IMG/VR virus record: IMGVR_UViG_3300011013_000073
Location: 1 to 25,923 of that record
From: a virus
Length of the DNA stretch: 25,923 nt
Reading direction: 5' to 3' (one strand)
A program made the position numbers and the translations under genes. The notes beneath the pieces are model-generated. The model saw nothing but the letters and a program-made list of their open reading frames with translations, was not told the origin of the DNA and ran no database searches. This document shows positions 2 through 9,118 of the stretch, piece after piece (the stretch's first letter is position 1; each line of letters opens with the position of its first letter).

Positions 2-274
2 CTAACAATCATGTTGGGTCTTGATATTCCTGTTGAAATACTCACCTTTAGAGTCTGCACCTTCAAATGCATCATATTTTCTCTCAGGCACACCACAAAA
101 ATCATACTCTTGACCGTTTAATATGACTGACATTTCTTGTAATTCTTGGTCATATCTTACGTTACCTACAAATGATGATGAGTGTGTAAATGCTTTGTAT
201 CTTTGTTCTTTAACTACCTCTGTCCATTCACAGGCACATTCTTTAAAGCTAAATTCTAGTTGTTTTTTTTTAAC
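2..274 (-). CDS. KTSC-domain reading frame without its own start codon, -1 to the prohead protease
   Basis: The frame is open from a TGA at 277-275 to a TAG at 4-2 and has no ATG, GTG or TTG before an internal methionine deep in the domain. The translated product matches the KTSC domain pattern: a Ser-rich start (HSSSF), a YD pair, a GQEYDFCGVP stretch, then ADSKGEYFNRNIK near the end. KTSC is a small domain named for its C-terminal Lys-Thr-Ser-Cys-type motif, with a proposed nucleic-acid or enzyme-accessory role; its function here is unknown. The frame lies directly behind and overlaps the end of the prohead protease, in the -1 frame, across a run of nine A (minus strand). It is best read as the C-terminal extension of that protease made by frameshifting, or as one gene broken by an indel in the homopolymer. 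Confidence 0.7.
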   Translation of the reverse strand, partial: VKKKQLEFSFKECACEWTEVVKEQRYKAFTHSSSFVGNVRYDQELQEMSVILNGQEYDFCGVPERKYDAFEGADSKGEYFNRNIKTQHDC

Positions 275-966
275 TCATTGCAACACTTGCAAAGGTATCT
301 TTCTTTCATATCATCAACTAATGTTGTTAGTTTCTCGGTATCTTCATTAATGATTGATTCGAGTAATTCTATTTGGTCGTATATCATTGGTTCTGGATGA
401 TCATCAGATATTTTTCTGAATATAGATAATACTTCTTGTTTCTTCTCTAATGTGGTATGTGTAAAGTCTAGTTTTGTTTCTTTACCGTCTCTAGTAATTG
501 TCTTGTGCATTTCTGGGTCATTACATTCTTTGATATAATTCTCAATAATTGATACTGATGTCTCTGGTACTCCCGGTGTCTCAGTTAGTGCTAATCCTTC
601 TGGTATTAGACCATAAGGCATTGAAAAACAATCTGTCTGACCGTTACAAACATGTTTAACTGATGTAGGAGTTGCTTCTATACTAGTATACAATAATCTG
701 TTCTTTGCTAGGATTGATGCTGATGGGTCTGTGATTTCACCTTCATAAAATACTGTCTCTGTGTCTGGGTTGTAGTGGAATGTTGCTTTTCCGATAACTT
801 TGTCTGGGTTGTGTTCCCAGTTTAATGGAACTGTTTTTCCGTCAAATCTTTTTAATTCTTCTTTAGTGTATAGATTCTGATTTCTAGAGATTCTTGGTAT
901 TAGTGCTACACCTGAGATTTTTGCGTTCTCATCAATTTTAGTGTATGACTCTAGATTGATATTCAT
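256..966 (-). CDS. HK97-type prohead (capsid maturation) protease
   Basis: The 236-residue product is likely the serine protease that cleaves scaffold and capsid protein during procapsid maturation. It shows the family layout: an N-terminal beta-rich part, LNWEH at residues 48-52 (catalytic His region, like the L..H of peptidase family S78), a G-rich strand (VFYEGEITD), and YTSIEA at 93-98 holding the likely nucleophile Ser95. The C-terminal third (about 160-236) is helical and charged and ends in CKCC, a possible metal site or scaffold-like delta domain. The portal gene is upstream and the capsid gene is expected downstream, the usual order in this module. A TTCTCT/TATA promoter sits about 22 bases before the ATG. 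The 3' end carries a candidate frameshift site. Confidence 0.75.
   Translation of the reverse strand: MNINLESYTKIDENAKISGVALIPRISRNQNLYTKEELKRFDGKTVPLNWEHNPDKVIGKATFHYNPDTETVFYEGEITDPSASILAKNRLLYTSIEATPTSVKHVCNGQTDCFSMPYGLIPEGLALTETPGVPETSVSIIENYIKECNDPEMHKTITRDGKETKLDFTHTTLEKKQEVLSIFRKISDDHPEPMIYDQIELLESIINEDTEKLTTLVDDMKERYLCKCCNELKKNN
262..268 (-). other. Candidate -1 ribosomal frameshift site (A AAA AAC)
   Basis: On the minus strand the last codons of the protease are TTA AAA AAA AAC AAC TAG. The heptamer A AAA AAC is in the X XXY YYZ phase used for -1 slippage. A slip here skips the TAG at 258-256 and adds 86 residues (QLEFSFKEC...QHDC) that form a KTSC domain. The alternative is a sequencing or assembly error in the nine-base homopolymer at 263-271. 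Confidence 0.5.
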
Positions 967-1147: not shown

Positions 1148-1951
1148 TTATGTTATCCAATCTCTTAAAAGGTCTGATATTTCAAAATACCTTGGTTGAA
1201 AGCCTTGATGTCCACCAAATCCGTCAAAACTATACATCTGTACTAGAAGAATCTTGTCTATTAGTTCTATCTTTGCGTTCTTATTATCTGGTGAAAATGC
1301 TGACATGAATGGAAACATAAGACTGTCTTGGTTGTTGGTTTTGTCCTTATCCTCTACATAATGACCTAATCCTAGAGCATGACCAAATTCATGTAGTAGT
1401 ATTTTCTTTACTGAATAATCTTCTAGATATTCATGGTTTTTTGTTGTTTTAAACTGTGCTTCTGCTATGTCATTATTATTACAACCTATGCATATTGATG
1501 CTTTTGATGTTAATTTCTCAGCAGTTACATACACCTTAATGTATGCATAATGATGTCTTGAATTGCTAAAGTCATACGCTGTATAACCTAGTGCAGTAGA
1601 GTTAACTACATCTCCTGTATTATGCATATCAAACTCTATGAATACATTACATTGTGGAAACTCTCTAACATGTCTATCAAAATGATTTTCATACTCTACT
1701 AATATCATTGGCATGTACCAATCGCCTTGTGAAAATTCTGTCATTTCTGTCTGCCATTCCATAACAGTGTTATATGCTTCATGCAATAGATAGTGATAGA
1801 ATCTAATCTGTAGTTCTTCATCAGGTTCCATTATACAGACTGTTGGATTATCTATGTGTTCATGTCTCATGGTCTCAAATCTATCTTCTGCTGATGCTAT
1901 TGGCATACTAGTACATACTAACAATACTAACAATACTGTTAATATTTTCAA
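1148..1951 (-). CDS. Secreted matrixin-like (metzincin) zinc metalloprotease
   Basis: Residues 1-21 form a signal peptide: a basic start (MK), a hydrophobic core, and an AxA-type cleavage site (ASA). HEFGHALGLGH at 187-197 is the full metzincin zinc-binding motif HExxHxxGxxH with catalytic Glu188, and SLMFP around Met212 is a good Met-turn. Together these place it in the matrixin (peptidase M10A) group. The length of 267 residues leaves room for a catalytic domain plus a variable N-terminal part. No Cys-switch propeptide is seen. The gene starts two bases after the stop of a small coiled-coil/membrane protein gene, so the two are probably translated together. Export implies action on the cell surface, plausibly on the host S-layer during egress; that target is inference. 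Confidence 0.85.
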   Translation of the reverse strand: MKILTVLLVLLVCTSMPIASAEDRFETMRHEHIDNPTVCIMEPDEELQIRFYHYLLHEAYNTVMEWQTEMTEFSQGDWYMPMILVEYENHFDRHVREFPQCNVFIEFDMHNTGDVVNSTALGYTAYDFSNSRHHYAYIKVYVTAEKLTSKASICIGCNNNDIAEAQFKTTKNHEYLEDYSVKKILLHEFGHALGLGHYVEDKDKTNNQDSLMFPFMSAFSPDNKNAKIELIDKILLVQMYSFDGFGGHQGFQPRYFEISDLLRDWIT

Positions 1952-1953
1952 TG

Positions 1954-2184
1954 TTAACCTAACACGCCTTGAAATATCTCGAACCCTGCAAATATTGTAG
2001 CCATTGCACCAATTATAATGTAAAACTTTCTGTCTTTGCCTGACTGTTTTCTTTCTATATCGTCGAAATGTGAGTTAAGTGCTATCTCCATTTTCATCAT
2101 TCTGCCACATAGATCATCAATTTTGCTATCTTGACCATCTAGCTTGTCTAGTATTCTTTTAGTCATATCATCGAACTCTGTCAT
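1954..2184 (-). CDS. Small coiled-coil protein with C-terminal membrane anchor (holin-associated type)
   Basis: The 76-residue product has a charged, heptad-like helix at about 1-50 (TKRILDKLDGQDSKIDD...) and one hydrophobic segment at about 54-73 (FYIIIGAMATIFAGFEIF). This resembles small XhlA-type proteins found beside phage lysis genes, but the sequence is too short to be sure. It overlaps the portal gene by four bases (ATGA) and is followed after two bases by the secreted matrixin. The pairing with an exported protease suggests a membrane role in lysis or entry. Confidence 0.6.
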   Translation of the reverse strand: MTEFDDMTKRILDKLDGQDSKIDDLCGRMMKMEIALNSHFDDIERKQSGKDRKFYIIIGAMATIFAGFEIFQGVLG

Positions 2185-3575
2185 GTTCGGCTACACTTTC
2201 CTTGGGTTCTACATTGACAACCTCTCTTAGTACATAATGCATGTTGGTGTTCTTTACACATCTTACACATCCTTAGTTTCTTAGGTTTGACTGATTCTAA
2301 TTCTTTCTTATCTATTGGTTTATCATCTTGTTCTGGGTTGTCTGCTTTAATTTTCTGTGCAGATATTGCCATTTGTTTCTTCATATCTTCATCTGCTAAT
2401 ATTTCCTTATCATCTGTTAGTTCAATACCGATGTTGGATTTTATCCATTCTCTCATCTCATTTAATGTAATATCGCCTTTCTCTTTCATGTCTATAACCT
2501 GTTCTACTTCCAACTCTTTTACATTCTGTGTAGTGAATTGAATATGACAATCTTCATTGTCTGGGTCATATCCTAGATTGATTAGTATAGGGTCAAACAA
2601 CTCATGCTTTAGTTTGTTGGCTAGGTATCTTTGGTATCCTCTGACTCTCTTTTGCACGATGGTCTCTGTGGTGTCTGATGATGCCCTACTGGTAAAGTCA
2701 CCTGTTAGTATATCGTGTGGGAATTGTGTACCTAGTTCGAAGGTCTTTTGTATATGTGCAACAAAGTCTGTATATTTACTGTTACCTGCACTCTCAAAGA
2801 ACTCTATTTCTGGTTTAACTTTCTGTACTCTTTTATCTCCCGGTTTGTACTCCTGCCATCTTCTTGCTTCTTGTCTTAGATAATCATCATTTGCTCCATT
2901 ATAGGTGATTGTTGTAATTGGGTATGCGTTGTTTAGGACAATAGATACCATTGCATCTTCAAGACCCCACATAGCTTCTACTAGTGGTGGCATTGTTCTG
3001 TTACCTATTGTTCTTGGTACTGCAAGAGAGTAGTATAATGATTTACCCCATGGTTGTCTAGAGTAAGATGTTAAGTTAAATTCAATAAATTTGCCTAATT
3101 TTCCTTCACCTAGTTTGTTTAATCCACCATTCTGTGTTCTTTGTTCATACCATTCTAACTCACCATATTCATCTCTTTTCTTTGATAGTATGGTTGACAT
3201 GTCTACTTCTAGTACATCTTGTACGTCTTTCTCATCTAGTTTCTCTAATATGCCGTTGCCTGTGATAAGTATTGTAGTAACTAAGTTTTCAAATTTATCA
3301 TAAAAGTTTGTACGTCTAATCCATCCATCTAGTTCTCTCTGTGCATCTTCTGAATTACATGTAATATTCATGTCTGTACCTGTGATCATTTCTGAATAAG
3401 ATGCTACTGCTATTCTAATCTGTGGTGTTCTGTCATGATAATCAATTAGTCTATCAAATGTAATATTCTCTGGTCTTTCTCTTGTCCAATCCCTCTTTAG
3501 TATTTTAGCTACTGGTGTCTTTCCAGAAACGTTTGATGTTTCCTCTACTCGTCTAAATCTGTCTAGAATACTCAT
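2181..3575 (-). CDS. Portal protein with a cysteine-rich C-terminal tail
   Basis: The 464-residue product fits a head-tail virus portal, the dodecameric channel through which DNA is packaged. Supporting features are the size, the position after the terminase genes, an N-terminal segment rich in charged residues, a central mixed part (PWGKSLYYSL, RTMPPLVEAMWGLEDAMVSI), and a typical late helical region with an FPHDILTGDFTSRASSDTTETI stretch like the SPP1/HK97 portal pattern. The last roughly 30 residues are unusual: CKMCKEHQHALC, then CQC and a final C, a likely zinc-binding tail not expected in a portal. The gene overlaps its neighbours on both sides by four bases (3572-3575 and 2181-2184), so it is part of one operon. 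Confidence 0.8.
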   Translation of the reverse strand: MSILDRFRRVEETSNVSGKTPVAKILKRDWTRERPENITFDRLIDYHDRTPQIRIAVASYSEMITGTDMNITCNSEDAQRELDGWIRRTNFYDKFENLVTTILITGNGILEKLDEKDVQDVLEVDMSTILSKKRDEYGELEWYEQRTQNGGLNKLGEGKLGKFIEFNLTSYSRQPWGKSLYYSLAVPRTIGNRTMPPLVEAMWGLEDAMVSIVLNNAYPITTITYNGANDDYLRQEARRWQEYKPGDKRVQKVKPEIEFFESAGNSKYTDFVAHIQKTFELGTQFPHDILTGDFTSRASSDTTETIVQKRVRGYQRYLANKLKHELFDPILINLGYDPDNEDCHIQFTTQNVKELEVEQVIDMKEKGDITLNEMREWIKSNIGIELTDDKEILADEDMKKQMAISAQKIKADNPEQDDKPIDKKELESVKPKKLRMCKMCKEHQHALCTKRGCQCRTQGKCSRT

Positions 3576-3928
3576 CCTGATGCACCTTGTAATACTAATA
3601 GTTCTGTATAATTTAATGTGCTTTCTTTAGCATCTGCTTTTGATATTTCTGCTTTAACTTCATATAAACCAAAGATAGGCATTTCACCATCTTGTACTGC
3701 ATAAGACCATGTACCATTAGATGCTGATACTATTGTTGCTGTCTTGTTAAATCTATCTCCCACTCTTCTAATCTTGTATATTCTAATCTTAACTGTATAA
3801 CCTGATAAATTCTTTGCTTGTGTTTTGTTCTTGTCTGTGTAGATTGTACCTGTTAGTTTATTATCTGCTGAATAGTCTCCACGATACCATGTTTTTTGAT
3901 CTAATTCTAGATAAAGACCGTATGCCAA
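3572..3928 (-). CDS. Small beta-sandwich structural protein (BppU/Ig-like)
   Basis: The 118-residue product starts with TTG at 3928, as no ATG fits the frame. It has alternating strands and a pattern (WYRGDY...GTIYTD...YTVKIRIYKI...GTWSYAVQD...GLYEVKAEI) like the N-terminal domain of baseplate upper proteins or other Ig-like virion domains. The 114-residue protein at 24152-24496 has the same plan (T..G..I.G......V.I.L......G.W......F..G.WQVQA). It sits directly before the portal gene with an ATGA overlap. It may decorate the head or form part of the neck; I cannot tell which. Confidence 0.5.
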   Translation of the reverse strand: MAYGLYLELDQKTWYRGDYSADNKLTGTIYTDKNKTQAKNLSGYTVKIRIYKIRRVGDRFNKTATIVSASNGTWSYAVQDGEMPIFGLYEVKAEISKADAKESTLNYTELLVLQGASG

Positions 3929-5310: not shown

Positions 5311-5512
5311 CTTCATCTCCTAGTATAGTCTTGAGGTTATGATAAATTGTACTCATTTTGATGTATTGGTCTGGTTCATCTGCCATGACTTCAACAAATG
5401 CTCTAAGGTGTGTCTCTAGGAAACAGTGTTTGCATAGTTTGCTACCATTGGATATATCCTTCATAAATTTTTGAAATATCTCCTTTTCCTCTGGTGTAAT
5501 ATCATCATTCAA
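5303..5512 (-). CDS. 69-residue protein with CxxC and His, unknown function
   Basis: Starts with TTG at 5512 and overlaps the end of the large terminase by eight bases. An acidic helix at the start (DDITPEEKEIFQKFMKDI) is followed by CKHCFLETH, which could hold a metal ion together with other residues. The last residues are acidic (GDEDE). No family recognised. Coupling to the terminase hints at a packaging or early head role, by position only. Confidence 0.5.
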   Translation of the reverse strand: MNDDITPEEKEIFQKFMKDISNGSKLCKHCFLETHLRAFVEVMADEPDQYIKMSTIYHNLKTILGDEDE

Positions 5513-6923
5513 CTTTCTCTACCTCTAGGAATACACTCTTTTTACTGTCCTTCTTACCACCTATCTCACCTTGAATAATATCTGTATGTGAATAGTCAAA
5601 CTCCTTCAAATCCCAACATGCCATGATAAAACAGTCTAGTACATCAGCATTAAGTTCTTCTTTATCTATTCCACCTTTCTTGTCAAACTGTGCTGAACGC
5701 ATCTGTGATAGTAGTTTAGTATGTGATGGATGTATTCTTACCTTGCCGTTCTTTACCATCTGTGCAGAATTGATTGTCATTTTTGAACGTAGTGATTGTA
5801 TGTTTGCTGATTCATGATCTCTTATTTGTAGACCGAAGTTAACTGGTAATGCTGGTATACCTCTCTCTTCTAGGTCTCTTATGAATCCGGGATGTGCACT
5901 ATCTATCTTACAGTTGTCATTAAATCTATGTGCCATATCTTCCATTACGTCTAACATTGCACTAGGGCTTGGTCTTGGAAATTCATTAGCTTCAATAACG
6001 TACAAAATACCATCTCTTATCTCAGCACCCAGAACGCCAAAGTTACTAGACCCGAAAGCAGGGTCGCCGTAACAACCACTTCGCCCACCAATAATTGATA
6101 AATCATATTTCTCTGTAACATCATCAATACCCTCGAATATATCTCCTAATCCATAGCCGTACTTAAGGTTATATTCTCGTTCAAATGATGGGTTTTGTTC
6201 CTTCTCTACCTTGATAATCTCTGGGTCATATACTACTCCAACTCCATGTGTATAGTCATATTGTTTCATTACATAGCCATTGTCCTCTTCTTCTTCCATG
6301 GTCTCAAATAAGCCACCGGGCATGTTTGGTGTACTGACCATTGTGATATATGCATCTCCTTTTCCTCTGTATCTCTCTGCAACAGTTCGTGCTTCTTGTT
6401 GATATCTCAATGGAAAGAAATCTCCCTCATCTAAGAATACTAGTCTAGGGTTAAGACCTCTAGCTGGTTCTAAGTGATTTGTAGGAAATGCTTCTATCTT
6501 ACAACCATTCAATACTACTAGTGATTCTTTAGTCTTAAACTCTTTACCTGTGAATAGACCTTTAATTCTACCAACTACTTTGTTTGTTAATTGTTGGTTT
6601 GCTCCTGTAATGATTACTACTGATATATCTACTTGAGAGTTTCTCCATTCATCGTCTTTTACACAATTCCATGCTATCCATCTAGTCATGAACTCTGTAA
6701 TGCCTAACCCAGTTGCTTTCTTTACCCATAGTTTTTTGTTCTTTTCTAGTATATCTGCTAATTCTTTCTCATATTCTGTATAGGTAAGTTTCTTTGGTAA
6801 TTCCTTCCAAAACTCCTCAAATGTCATACCTCTATACTTTTCAAACTCTACTATAGGCTCAACGTCATTCTTAACGATGCTTAATGCGTTATGTATATCA
6901 GCTTCAAATATGGTCATGTTCAT
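5505..6923 (-). CDS. terL: Terminase large subunit (packaging ATPase and nuclease)
   Basis: The 472-residue product is the motor that cuts concatemeric DNA and pumps it into the procapsid. The ATPase part has a divergent Walker A (KKATGLGITE, residues 68-77), Walker B LVFLDEGD (161-168) with catalytic Glu, and the coupling motif STPN (197-200). The C-terminal RNase H-like nuclease shows the three acidic positions expected: GDPAFG with Asp287, DSAHPG with Asp341, and NADVLD near 426-430. The length is normal for the family. It overlaps the small gene before it by 20 bases and the one after it by eight. Identification is firm from motif order and neighbours. Confidence 0.9.
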   Translation of the reverse strand: MNMTIFEADIHNALSIVKNDVEPIVEFEKYRGMTFEEFWKELPKKLTYTEYEKELADILEKNKKLWVKKATGLGITEFMTRWIAWNCVKDDEWRNSQVDISVVIITGANQQLTNKVVGRIKGLFTGKEFKTKESLVVLNGCKIEAFPTNHLEPARGLNPRLVFLDEGDFFPLRYQQEARTVAERYRGKGDAYITMVSTPNMPGGLFETMEEEEDNGYVMKQYDYTHGVGVVYDPEIIKVEKEQNPSFEREYNLKYGYGLGDIFEGIDDVTEKYDLSIIGGRSGCYGDPAFGSSNFGVLGAEIRDGILYVIEANEFPRPSPSAMLDVMEDMAHRFNDNCKIDSAHPGFIRDLEERGIPALPVNFGLQIRDHESANIQSLRSKMTINSAQMVKNGKVRIHPSHTKLLSQMRSAQFDKKGGIDKEELNADVLDCFIMACWDLKEFDYSHTDIIQGEIGGKKDSKKSVFLEVEKVE

Positions 6924-8338: not shown

Positions 8339-8432
8339 GATTTACCATACCCTTGCCTTCACAGACAAAACACTCAAAATTCATAAATACTTTATTGCCT
8401 TTACATTGTGGACATCTTATTTGCACACTCAT
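8325..8432 (-). CDS. 35-residue DnaJ-type zinc micro-protein
   Basis: ATG 8432 to TAA 8325. CPQCKG (7-12) and CFVCEGKG (21-28) repeat the CxxCxG pattern of DnaJ-like zinc centres. It overlaps the end of the matrixin gene by four bases (ATGA) and the next zinc gene by 14. It is probably a protein- or metal-binding adaptor; no partner is evident. Confidence 0.6.
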   Translation of the reverse strand: MSVQIRCPQCKGNKVFMNFECFVCEGKGMVNLDDR

Positions 8433-9118
8433 CTAAAATCTCCACCTCTGATTCTTCTACGCATAAAATAGTCTAATATTCTTTGACTTAAATTTCTTTT
8501 GCCGTACCTTTCTTGTATCCTCTCTATGTCATATTGATGTAATACATTTTTGGTTTTGCCTAGGTTCATTGATGGATACATAATACAATCCTTTGAACGG
8601 TTGTCATGTCGTAACCCTAGGGCATGTCCTATTTCATGCATCAATACTGTTACAAGTGGTGGTCTAGCTAGGTCTTGCCAATTAGAATGTGGTACCCAAT
8701 CCCAATTATCATTGATGCAAATATCACCAGATACCTCACCTTGACCCGGAAAATATGCGTGTGCTAGTACACCTTTTCTGTTGTCAAAATGTTCTAACTC
8801 TCTAAATTCTATCTTAAAGTCTGCCTTTGCATTACCATATACTCGTTTAAATTTTATATCTTTGACCCTTAAACCCCATGCCCTGAACGCTACTGTTACA
8901 GCTCTTTCTTGATCATGTCTGGATTTCCAATCATTTGTGTATGATAATAATTTGTATGTTAATTTACCTTTGTGCCAACTGTGCTCCCATTCATCTATCA
9001 ATGGTTCTGCTACTTTGTTGTCAACAACTGAGCCAATGATTAAACCACCATAGCCATGTACACCAATCTCACACATTACTTCTGTGTCTTTTTTCTTTGA
9101 AAAACGTCTACCTCGCAT
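8429..9118 (-). CDS. Second matrixin-type zinc metalloprotease, no signal peptide
   Basis: The 229-residue product is a near-canonical matrixin (M10A) catalytic domain. LTYKLLSYTNDW (53-64) is the first strand. AWGLRVKDIKF with ADFKIEF follows. GVLAHAYFPGQGEVSGDICIND (116-137) is the loop that holds the structural zinc and calcium. HEIGHALGLRH (161-171) binds the catalytic zinc and CIMYP (178-182) is the Met-turn. No signal peptide, Cys switch or C-terminal hemopexin domain is seen; the ends are basic (RGRRFSKKK, RRRIRGG). It lies 44 bases after a small two-segment membrane gene. It may be carried in the virion or released on lysis; the substrate is unknown. Confidence 0.88.
   Translation of the reverse strand: MRGRRFSKKKDTEVMCEIGVHGYGGLIIGSVVDNKVAEPLIDEWEHSWHKGKLTYKLLSYTNDWKSRHDQERAVTVAFRAWGLRVKDIKFKRVYGNAKADFKIEFRELEHFDNRKGVLAHAYFPGQGEVSGDICINDNWDWVPHSNWQDLARPPLVTVLMHEIGHALGLRHDNRSKDCIMYPSMNLGKTKNVLHQYDIERIQERYGKRNLSQRILDYFMRRRIRGGDFR

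Follow-up and report, generated by a model that had tools for sequence, protein, structure and literature searches.

The prohead protease gene of a virus that probably infects ammonia-oxidizing archaea ends on a run of nine A's, from which the −1 frame leads into a KTSC domain lacking a start codon of its own. Across the viral family, run, frame, and coding extension have all been conserved under selection, and this, from comparison of the sequences, makes programmed recoding almost certain. A slip at the run yielding a minor protease–extension fusion is, taken as a whole, a rather likely explanation. The window, i.e., the whole stretch of DNA that we analyzed, is the complete 25,923-base IMG/VR record IMGVR_UViG_3300011013_000073, and it ends at the KTSC stop codon.

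Gene Neighborhood and Identity of the Protease

The features of the window are collected in Table 1. In a near-identical, longer record of the same virus, the major capsid gene comes directly after KTSC, giving the order portal, protease, KTSC, and major capsid protein, the latter being homologous to the capsid protein of Nvie-Pro1. In PHROG, the protease hits family 7015, head maturation protease (E 8.9e-5), and it shares 37% identity with the protease/major capsid protein of Nvie-Pro1; this homology to a named protease, combined with its place between the portal and major capsid genes, identifies it at the sequence level as a caudoviral prohead protease. Residues H52 and S95 are invariant. 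The structure model has a pLDDT of 63, and its top solved-fold neighbors are herpesvirus assemblin proteases, with an E value just above 0.001, which is not significant.

Two other observations were made in these neighborhoods. The minus strand of the window carries two matrixin-type (M10) metallopeptidase genes, one with a strong M10 match and the other, located between the portal and protease genes, with a signal-like N-terminus. A short cysteine motif, CPxGQ...GKC, is shared by the N-terminus of a major capsid protein (L168, 7662–9116) and the C-terminus of a related protease (L109, 3477–4160).

Table 1. Position of the protease, slip site, extension, and neighboring genes in the window.
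Feature	Position	Strand	Evidence and remarks
Portal protein	2181..3575	−	Portal_Mu 4.2e-7; PHROG 9232 portal 1.4e-15; transcribed before the protease
Matrixin-type (M10) metallopeptidase	8429..9118	−	4.6e-32
Matrixin-like metallopeptidase, between portal and protease	1148..1951	−	PF00413 2.8e-6
Prohead (head maturation) protease, 236 aa, ATG start	256..966	−	TAG stop at 256–258; PHROG 7015 and Nvie-Pro1 homology
Slip site, run of nine A's	263..271	−	T's on the + strand; C comes next after the run
In-frame heptamer A_AAA_AAC	262..268	−	read directly
−1 frame extension, 86 aa, without own start codon	2..262	−	TAG stop at 2–4
KTSC domain (PF13619)	17..181	−	E 3.2e-16; 59.2 bits vs. cut-off 25

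On the minus strand, the 3′ end of the protease gene reads ...GAG TTA AAA AAA AAC AAC TAG AAT TTA.... An earlier sequence-only reading had described the gene as ending in TTA AAA AAA AAC AAC TAG with A_AAA_AAC in phase, followed in the −1 frame by 86 residues holding a KTSC domain and lacking a start. All three points are borne out, the first by direct reading and the second by the PF13619 match; as to the third, no ATG, GTG, or TTG stands between the upstream stop and KTSC in the window, and the same is true of most relatives with a short extension.

Conservation across the Viral Family

We searched viral contigs with the protease, with protease profiles, and with KTSC, and obtained about 40 protease-bearing contigs (the loci and records cited below carry L numbers). 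The junction is readable in 33 loci, window included, which form 16 clusters at 85% nucleotide identity, or 17 with a relocated copy in L039. The count leaves out L006, in which the site contains ambiguous bases, and L014, L029, L034, and L040, where the contig ends before it.

In 33/33 readable loci, with protease identity as low as 48%, a run of nine or ten A's ends the protease and the −1 frame then forms a long ORF, usually with KTSC at its end; the +1 frame is closed at most 21 codons past the run. Being kept in all of these loci, the arrangement is confirmed, by this comparison, to exceed chance. Runs of ten occur only in L030, L035, and L038, three loci with GAA as the upstream codon and Asn as the residue that follows, and there too the −1 relation is kept. 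A frame fusing protease and extension was found in 0 of the 33. With dN/dS between 0.05 and 0.21 in every pair with measurable dS, the extension is, on these substitution patterns, under purifying selection and evolves as a protein. Each of the ten records that we read further (315 kb) has one junction run.

The central claim of the sequence-only reading, that a −1 frame change extends the protease into KTSC, thus gains the support of 33 loci in which run, frame, and extension are kept. Its emphasis on the heptamer fared less well in the alignment of homologs: the −1 frame is conserved, but the exact A_AAA_AAC varies while the run of nine stays.

Composition of the Extensions

In the window's group, the extension consists of a short linker and KTSC, and it has no match among named phages. 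In other relatives, the slip site is followed by a cassette and only then by a lysine-rich linker and KTSC; the KTSC profile also matches above the cut-off in the extensions of L010, L017, L020, L024, L031, and L038. Solved relatives of KTSC are 4rgi, 7x8c, and the C-terminus of 8wiv. PADLOC returned nothing on the extensions.

Cassettes with an HExxH motif are present in L020 and L038, as well as in L008, where the cassette is cut by the contig end. At the point of truncation (about 5360–5422), the end of that contig encodes VSYTHLTLPTILRV, apparently an artifact of assembly or of an adapter. L030 and L035 have an HExxH cassette as their whole extension, with KTSC in a separate next gene that probably has its own ATG. 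The motif is conserved in five divergent cassettes. Weak metallopeptidase matches come from Pfam and PHROG; a model of the HExxH cassette (pLDDT 83) gives weak solved-fold matches, Wss1/selecase-like zincins among them, none of which is significant. Other cassettes occupy the same place in L017, L024, and L027, and an extra segment is present in L010, L031, and L033. The cassettes of L024 and of L017/L027 look ADP-ribosyltransferase-like by eye only, and no profile supports this resemblance. Since the sequence directly 3′ of the run differs between extension groups, modules were apparently swapped at this point with the run retained, and the slip site, in this comparison of groups, appears to be a docking point for exchangeable modules.

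The position of the device itself also varies. In L039 (IMGVR_UViG_3300026543_000029), the protease has no run, and a run of nine A's with a −1 shift and KTSC is carried by a separate small downstream gene; this gene, at 6079–6606 with the run at 6526, is coiled-coil-like, has a CPDCG motif, and uses a third codon phase. The more distant relative L109 has neither run nor KTSC. Exactly one KTSC was found per record in 13 of the 14 records checked, and the repeated linkage of KTSC to head genes suggests that the domain would have a role in the virion.

Relatives in which protease and KTSC share one frame, or are separate genes with normal starts, were regarded in the sequence-only reading as counter-evidence to a frameshift. 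Both situations exist in part. In L054, L056, L069, and L142, KTSC lies near the N-terminus of a single-frame protein of 430–720 residues, but these belong to a different and more distant virus group, the domain order is reversed, and the protease domain is only possible: their C-terminus, compared with the window protease, gives an hhalign probability of 65% (E 6e-5, a single comparison) and may be a protease. KTSC is a separate gene in L030 and L035, as said above, but the slip site is kept there and leads into the HExxH cassette. Elsewhere, in L143 (IMGVR_UViG_3300032106_000109, 1464–3680), a portal-like protein of 738 residues, encoded in a single frame, carries KTSC at its C-terminal end; its ORF contains nine consecutive A's at 3253, and the frame does not change there.

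Polymerase or Ribosome

It is on the step that slips that our account departs from the sequence-only reading, which had invoked ribosomal −1 slippage on A_AAA_AAC. Such slippage is possible; it is not the best-supported detail, as codon phases vary, the run of nine is constant, and no downstream structure is seen. Three different codon phases, all with at least nine A's, are in use: xxA AAA AAA AAC/G, GAA AAA AAA ACG, and AAA AAA AAA GCA (L039). The heptamer is A_AAA_AAG in L011, L013, and L016, and only A_AAA_AAA is in phase in L031, L032, and L036 (GAA AAA AAA ACG). In these alignments, it is the stretch of nine A's, and not the heptamer, whose conservation is decisive.

Two properties by which transcriptional slippage is recognized are found here: a run of at least nine A/T whose length is conserved in homologs, and avoidance of such runs elsewhere in coding sequence. 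Outside the junction, 0 runs of nine or more A's were observed in non-redundant ORFs vs. 9.8 expected from codon shuffling; inside the ORFs of the ten records, there are only 2 non-junction runs in 271 kb of ORFs. Both are in one record, IMGVR_UViG_3300031688_000052 (L155:2407 and L156:9178), and neither opens a long shifted frame. According to Baranov et al. (2005), avoidance of A/T runs in coding regions often starts at nine, and a 9A run of a length conserved in all homologs is very likely a case of purposeful transcriptional slippage (PMC1088944); the Atkins review gives nine as efficient in vivo for slippage by the bacterial polymerase and describes Thermus dnaX (PMC5009743). Slippage of an archaeal RNA polymerase at nine A's was not found documented in the papers searched. 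These sequence patterns fit slippage by RNA polymerase at least as well as a ribosomal heptamer, and both could act; we consider that the archaeal RNA polymerase is probably what slips.

Classical −1 programmed ribosomal frameshifting on A_AAA_AAC, or on its A_AAA_AAG and A_AAA_AAA forms, is the one serious competitor, to which we give a minority chance. A conserved in-frame slippery heptamer, the hallmark of this process, is present in all readable loci in its AAC, AAG, or AAA form. In the common phase, the run is followed by C or G and never by T, as a preference for AAC/AAG over AAT would have it, although stops in the −1 frame account for some of the absence of T. Precedents exist in archaea: conserved A_AAA_AAR shift sites in magnesium chelatase genes (PMC5009743) and −1 frameshifting proposed in haloviruses (PMC8211752). 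However, six A's are enough for the ribosome, yet there are at least nine everywhere, the free third codon position included: the codon preceding the two lysines ends in A whichever of seven amino acids it encodes, despite alternative codons, the product of the seven codon frequencies for this A being about 0.016 (one draw per amino acid). Within other genes, these heptamers are tolerated (18 in-frame A_AAA_AAC/G in ORFs vs. 26 expected from codon shuffling). Folding of the downstream RNA, a check proposed in the sequence-only reading, revealed no stimulatory stem shared in the 75 nt past the run (mean z −0.54 over 17 clusters, nested structures only), nor is there any conserved downstream sequence past the run; it is true that not all ribosomal sites need a stimulator. 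One has to keep in mind that the codon-shuffle null overpredicts shorter runs too (runs of six or more A's are observed at 0.8 of expectation), which makes the contrast between long runs and heptamers only one of degree, and that DNA replication slippage can also select against runs of nine or more. For these two reasons, our preference for the polymerase is a lean and not a proof.

Other Explanations of the Junction

The extension could be an independent gene, translated through coupling or from an unusual start after the protease stop. The two do overlap closely, and the separate KTSC genes of L030 and L035 go in this direction, but ATG, GTG, and TTG are all lacking ahead of KTSC in the window, as in most relatives whose extension is short, and this, together with the conserved run and constant −1 phase that the proposal leaves unexplained, makes it highly improbable. 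We find phase variation at the DNA level, in which run length would switch the fusion on and off in the population, just as hard to credit: long homopolymers are hypermutable through replication slippage (PMC1088944), but the fused (on) length is seen in 0 of 33 loci, and nine (or ten) always keeps the −1 relation. A sequencing or assembly indel in the homopolymer, raised as the competing view in the sequence-only reading, or the decay of a fused gene, can be dismissed: homopolymers are error-prone in some sequencing methods, but the same frame relation recurs in contigs of many separate metagenomes and in 16 divergent clusters, with the extension under selection and no fused-frame contig, and only a systematic error common to all assemblies could rescue this idea. 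Conservation at the 33 loci, purifying selection, and the lack of a fused frame together lead us to reject indel, gene decay, and phase variation alike.

Proposed Mechanism and Role

In the mechanism that we propose, most products would end within about 8 codons past the run and give the plain protease, whereas a fraction would shift to the −1 frame and give the protease with a C-terminal extension. With slippage by RNA polymerase, the enzyme would add one A and produce an mRNA with ten A's; alternatively, the ribosome would slip at A_AAA_AAN. The fusion product would comprise the linker and KTSC in the window's virus and, in relatives, an optional HExxH or other cassette, the lysine-rich linker, and KTSC.

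The protease part might then carry the extension into the forming head, so that a limited dose of the KTSC or effector module would be present in, or delivered by, the virion. We infer this loading of the head: the protease would be incorporated in the prohead, and a module joined to a fraction of it would enter with it, much as in retroviruses the Gag-Pol fusion made by frameshifting loads enzymes into particles (PMC5009743). The full picture, in which tailed viruses of ammonia-oxidizing archaea would use polymerase slippage on nine A's to make a limited dose of cassette/KTSC protease as a DNA-virus counterpart of Gag-Pol that loads head cargo, is put forward tentatively.

Host and Comparison with Known Systems

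The only named phage record matched by TerL and protease is Nvie-Pro1, a provirus of Nitrososphaera viennensis (FR725450), with 45% identity for TerL, the value given above for the protease, and 34% for the major capsid protein; the MCM helicase matches only archaeal viruses. These matches indicate that the host probably belongs to Nitrososphaeria, i.e., to the ammonia-oxidizing archaea. Cellular genome contigs scanned with the protease and TerL alignments gave no match. Nvie-Pro1 has the three homologous genes, but there, according to the annotation and to PMC6563490, protease and major capsid protein form a single-frame fusion, with no KTSC extension between them.

Frameshift-extended virion proteins and slippage at nine A's are each already known. 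The capsid extensions of T7, T3, and Lactobacillus phage A2 and the tail chaperones gpG/gpGT rely on −1 recoding to give a minor, C-terminally extended product of a virion-morphogenesis gene (PMC5009743), as proposed here; unlike them, the window's carrier is a prohead protease, the host is probably archaeal, the nine A's come without a visible stimulator, and the family's extension brings in KTSC and cassettes that can be exchanged. Thermus thermophilus dnaX and bacterial IS elements likewise have a conserved nine-base homopolymer before the frame change, avoided elsewhere (PMC5009743, PMC1088944), but these are bacterial, and slippage in the window's family is deduced from sequence. Effector domains are known to be fused to head proteins, such as MuF, portal, and capsid-processing peptidase, or to occur in polyvalent proteins (PMC9503650); an effector-like domain is joined there to a head protein, capsid peptidase included, as may be the case here. 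Those fusions are direct, whereas the join in the window's family would be made by slippage, so that only a fraction of the protease would carry the module. In archaea, Saccharolobus solfataricus fucA1 has a −1 shift at a slippery heptamer (PMC8211752); it is a single cellular enzyme, in contrast to the conserved viral family described here. For archaea as a whole, a recoding review counts a single −1 frameshift established by experiment, besides predictions in haloviruses (PMC8211752).

In the open-license papers searched, we found no case of a recoded prohead protease, and an earlier report elsewhere is possible; nor were a protease carrier, an archaeal viral family, a stimulator-less slip site, and exchangeable cassettes found together in them. 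Most of the extensions have no start codon, and ordinary gene callers are for this reason likely to overlook them. Through these findings, the KTSC domain is linked with the gene cluster of the virion head. The slip site, kept throughout a viral family that probably infects ammonia-oxidizing archaea, would add to the scarce archaeal cases of −1 frame change and, if slippage by the polymerase proves true, it would be, according to the papers searched, the first case of programmed transcriptional slippage known from an archaeal virus.
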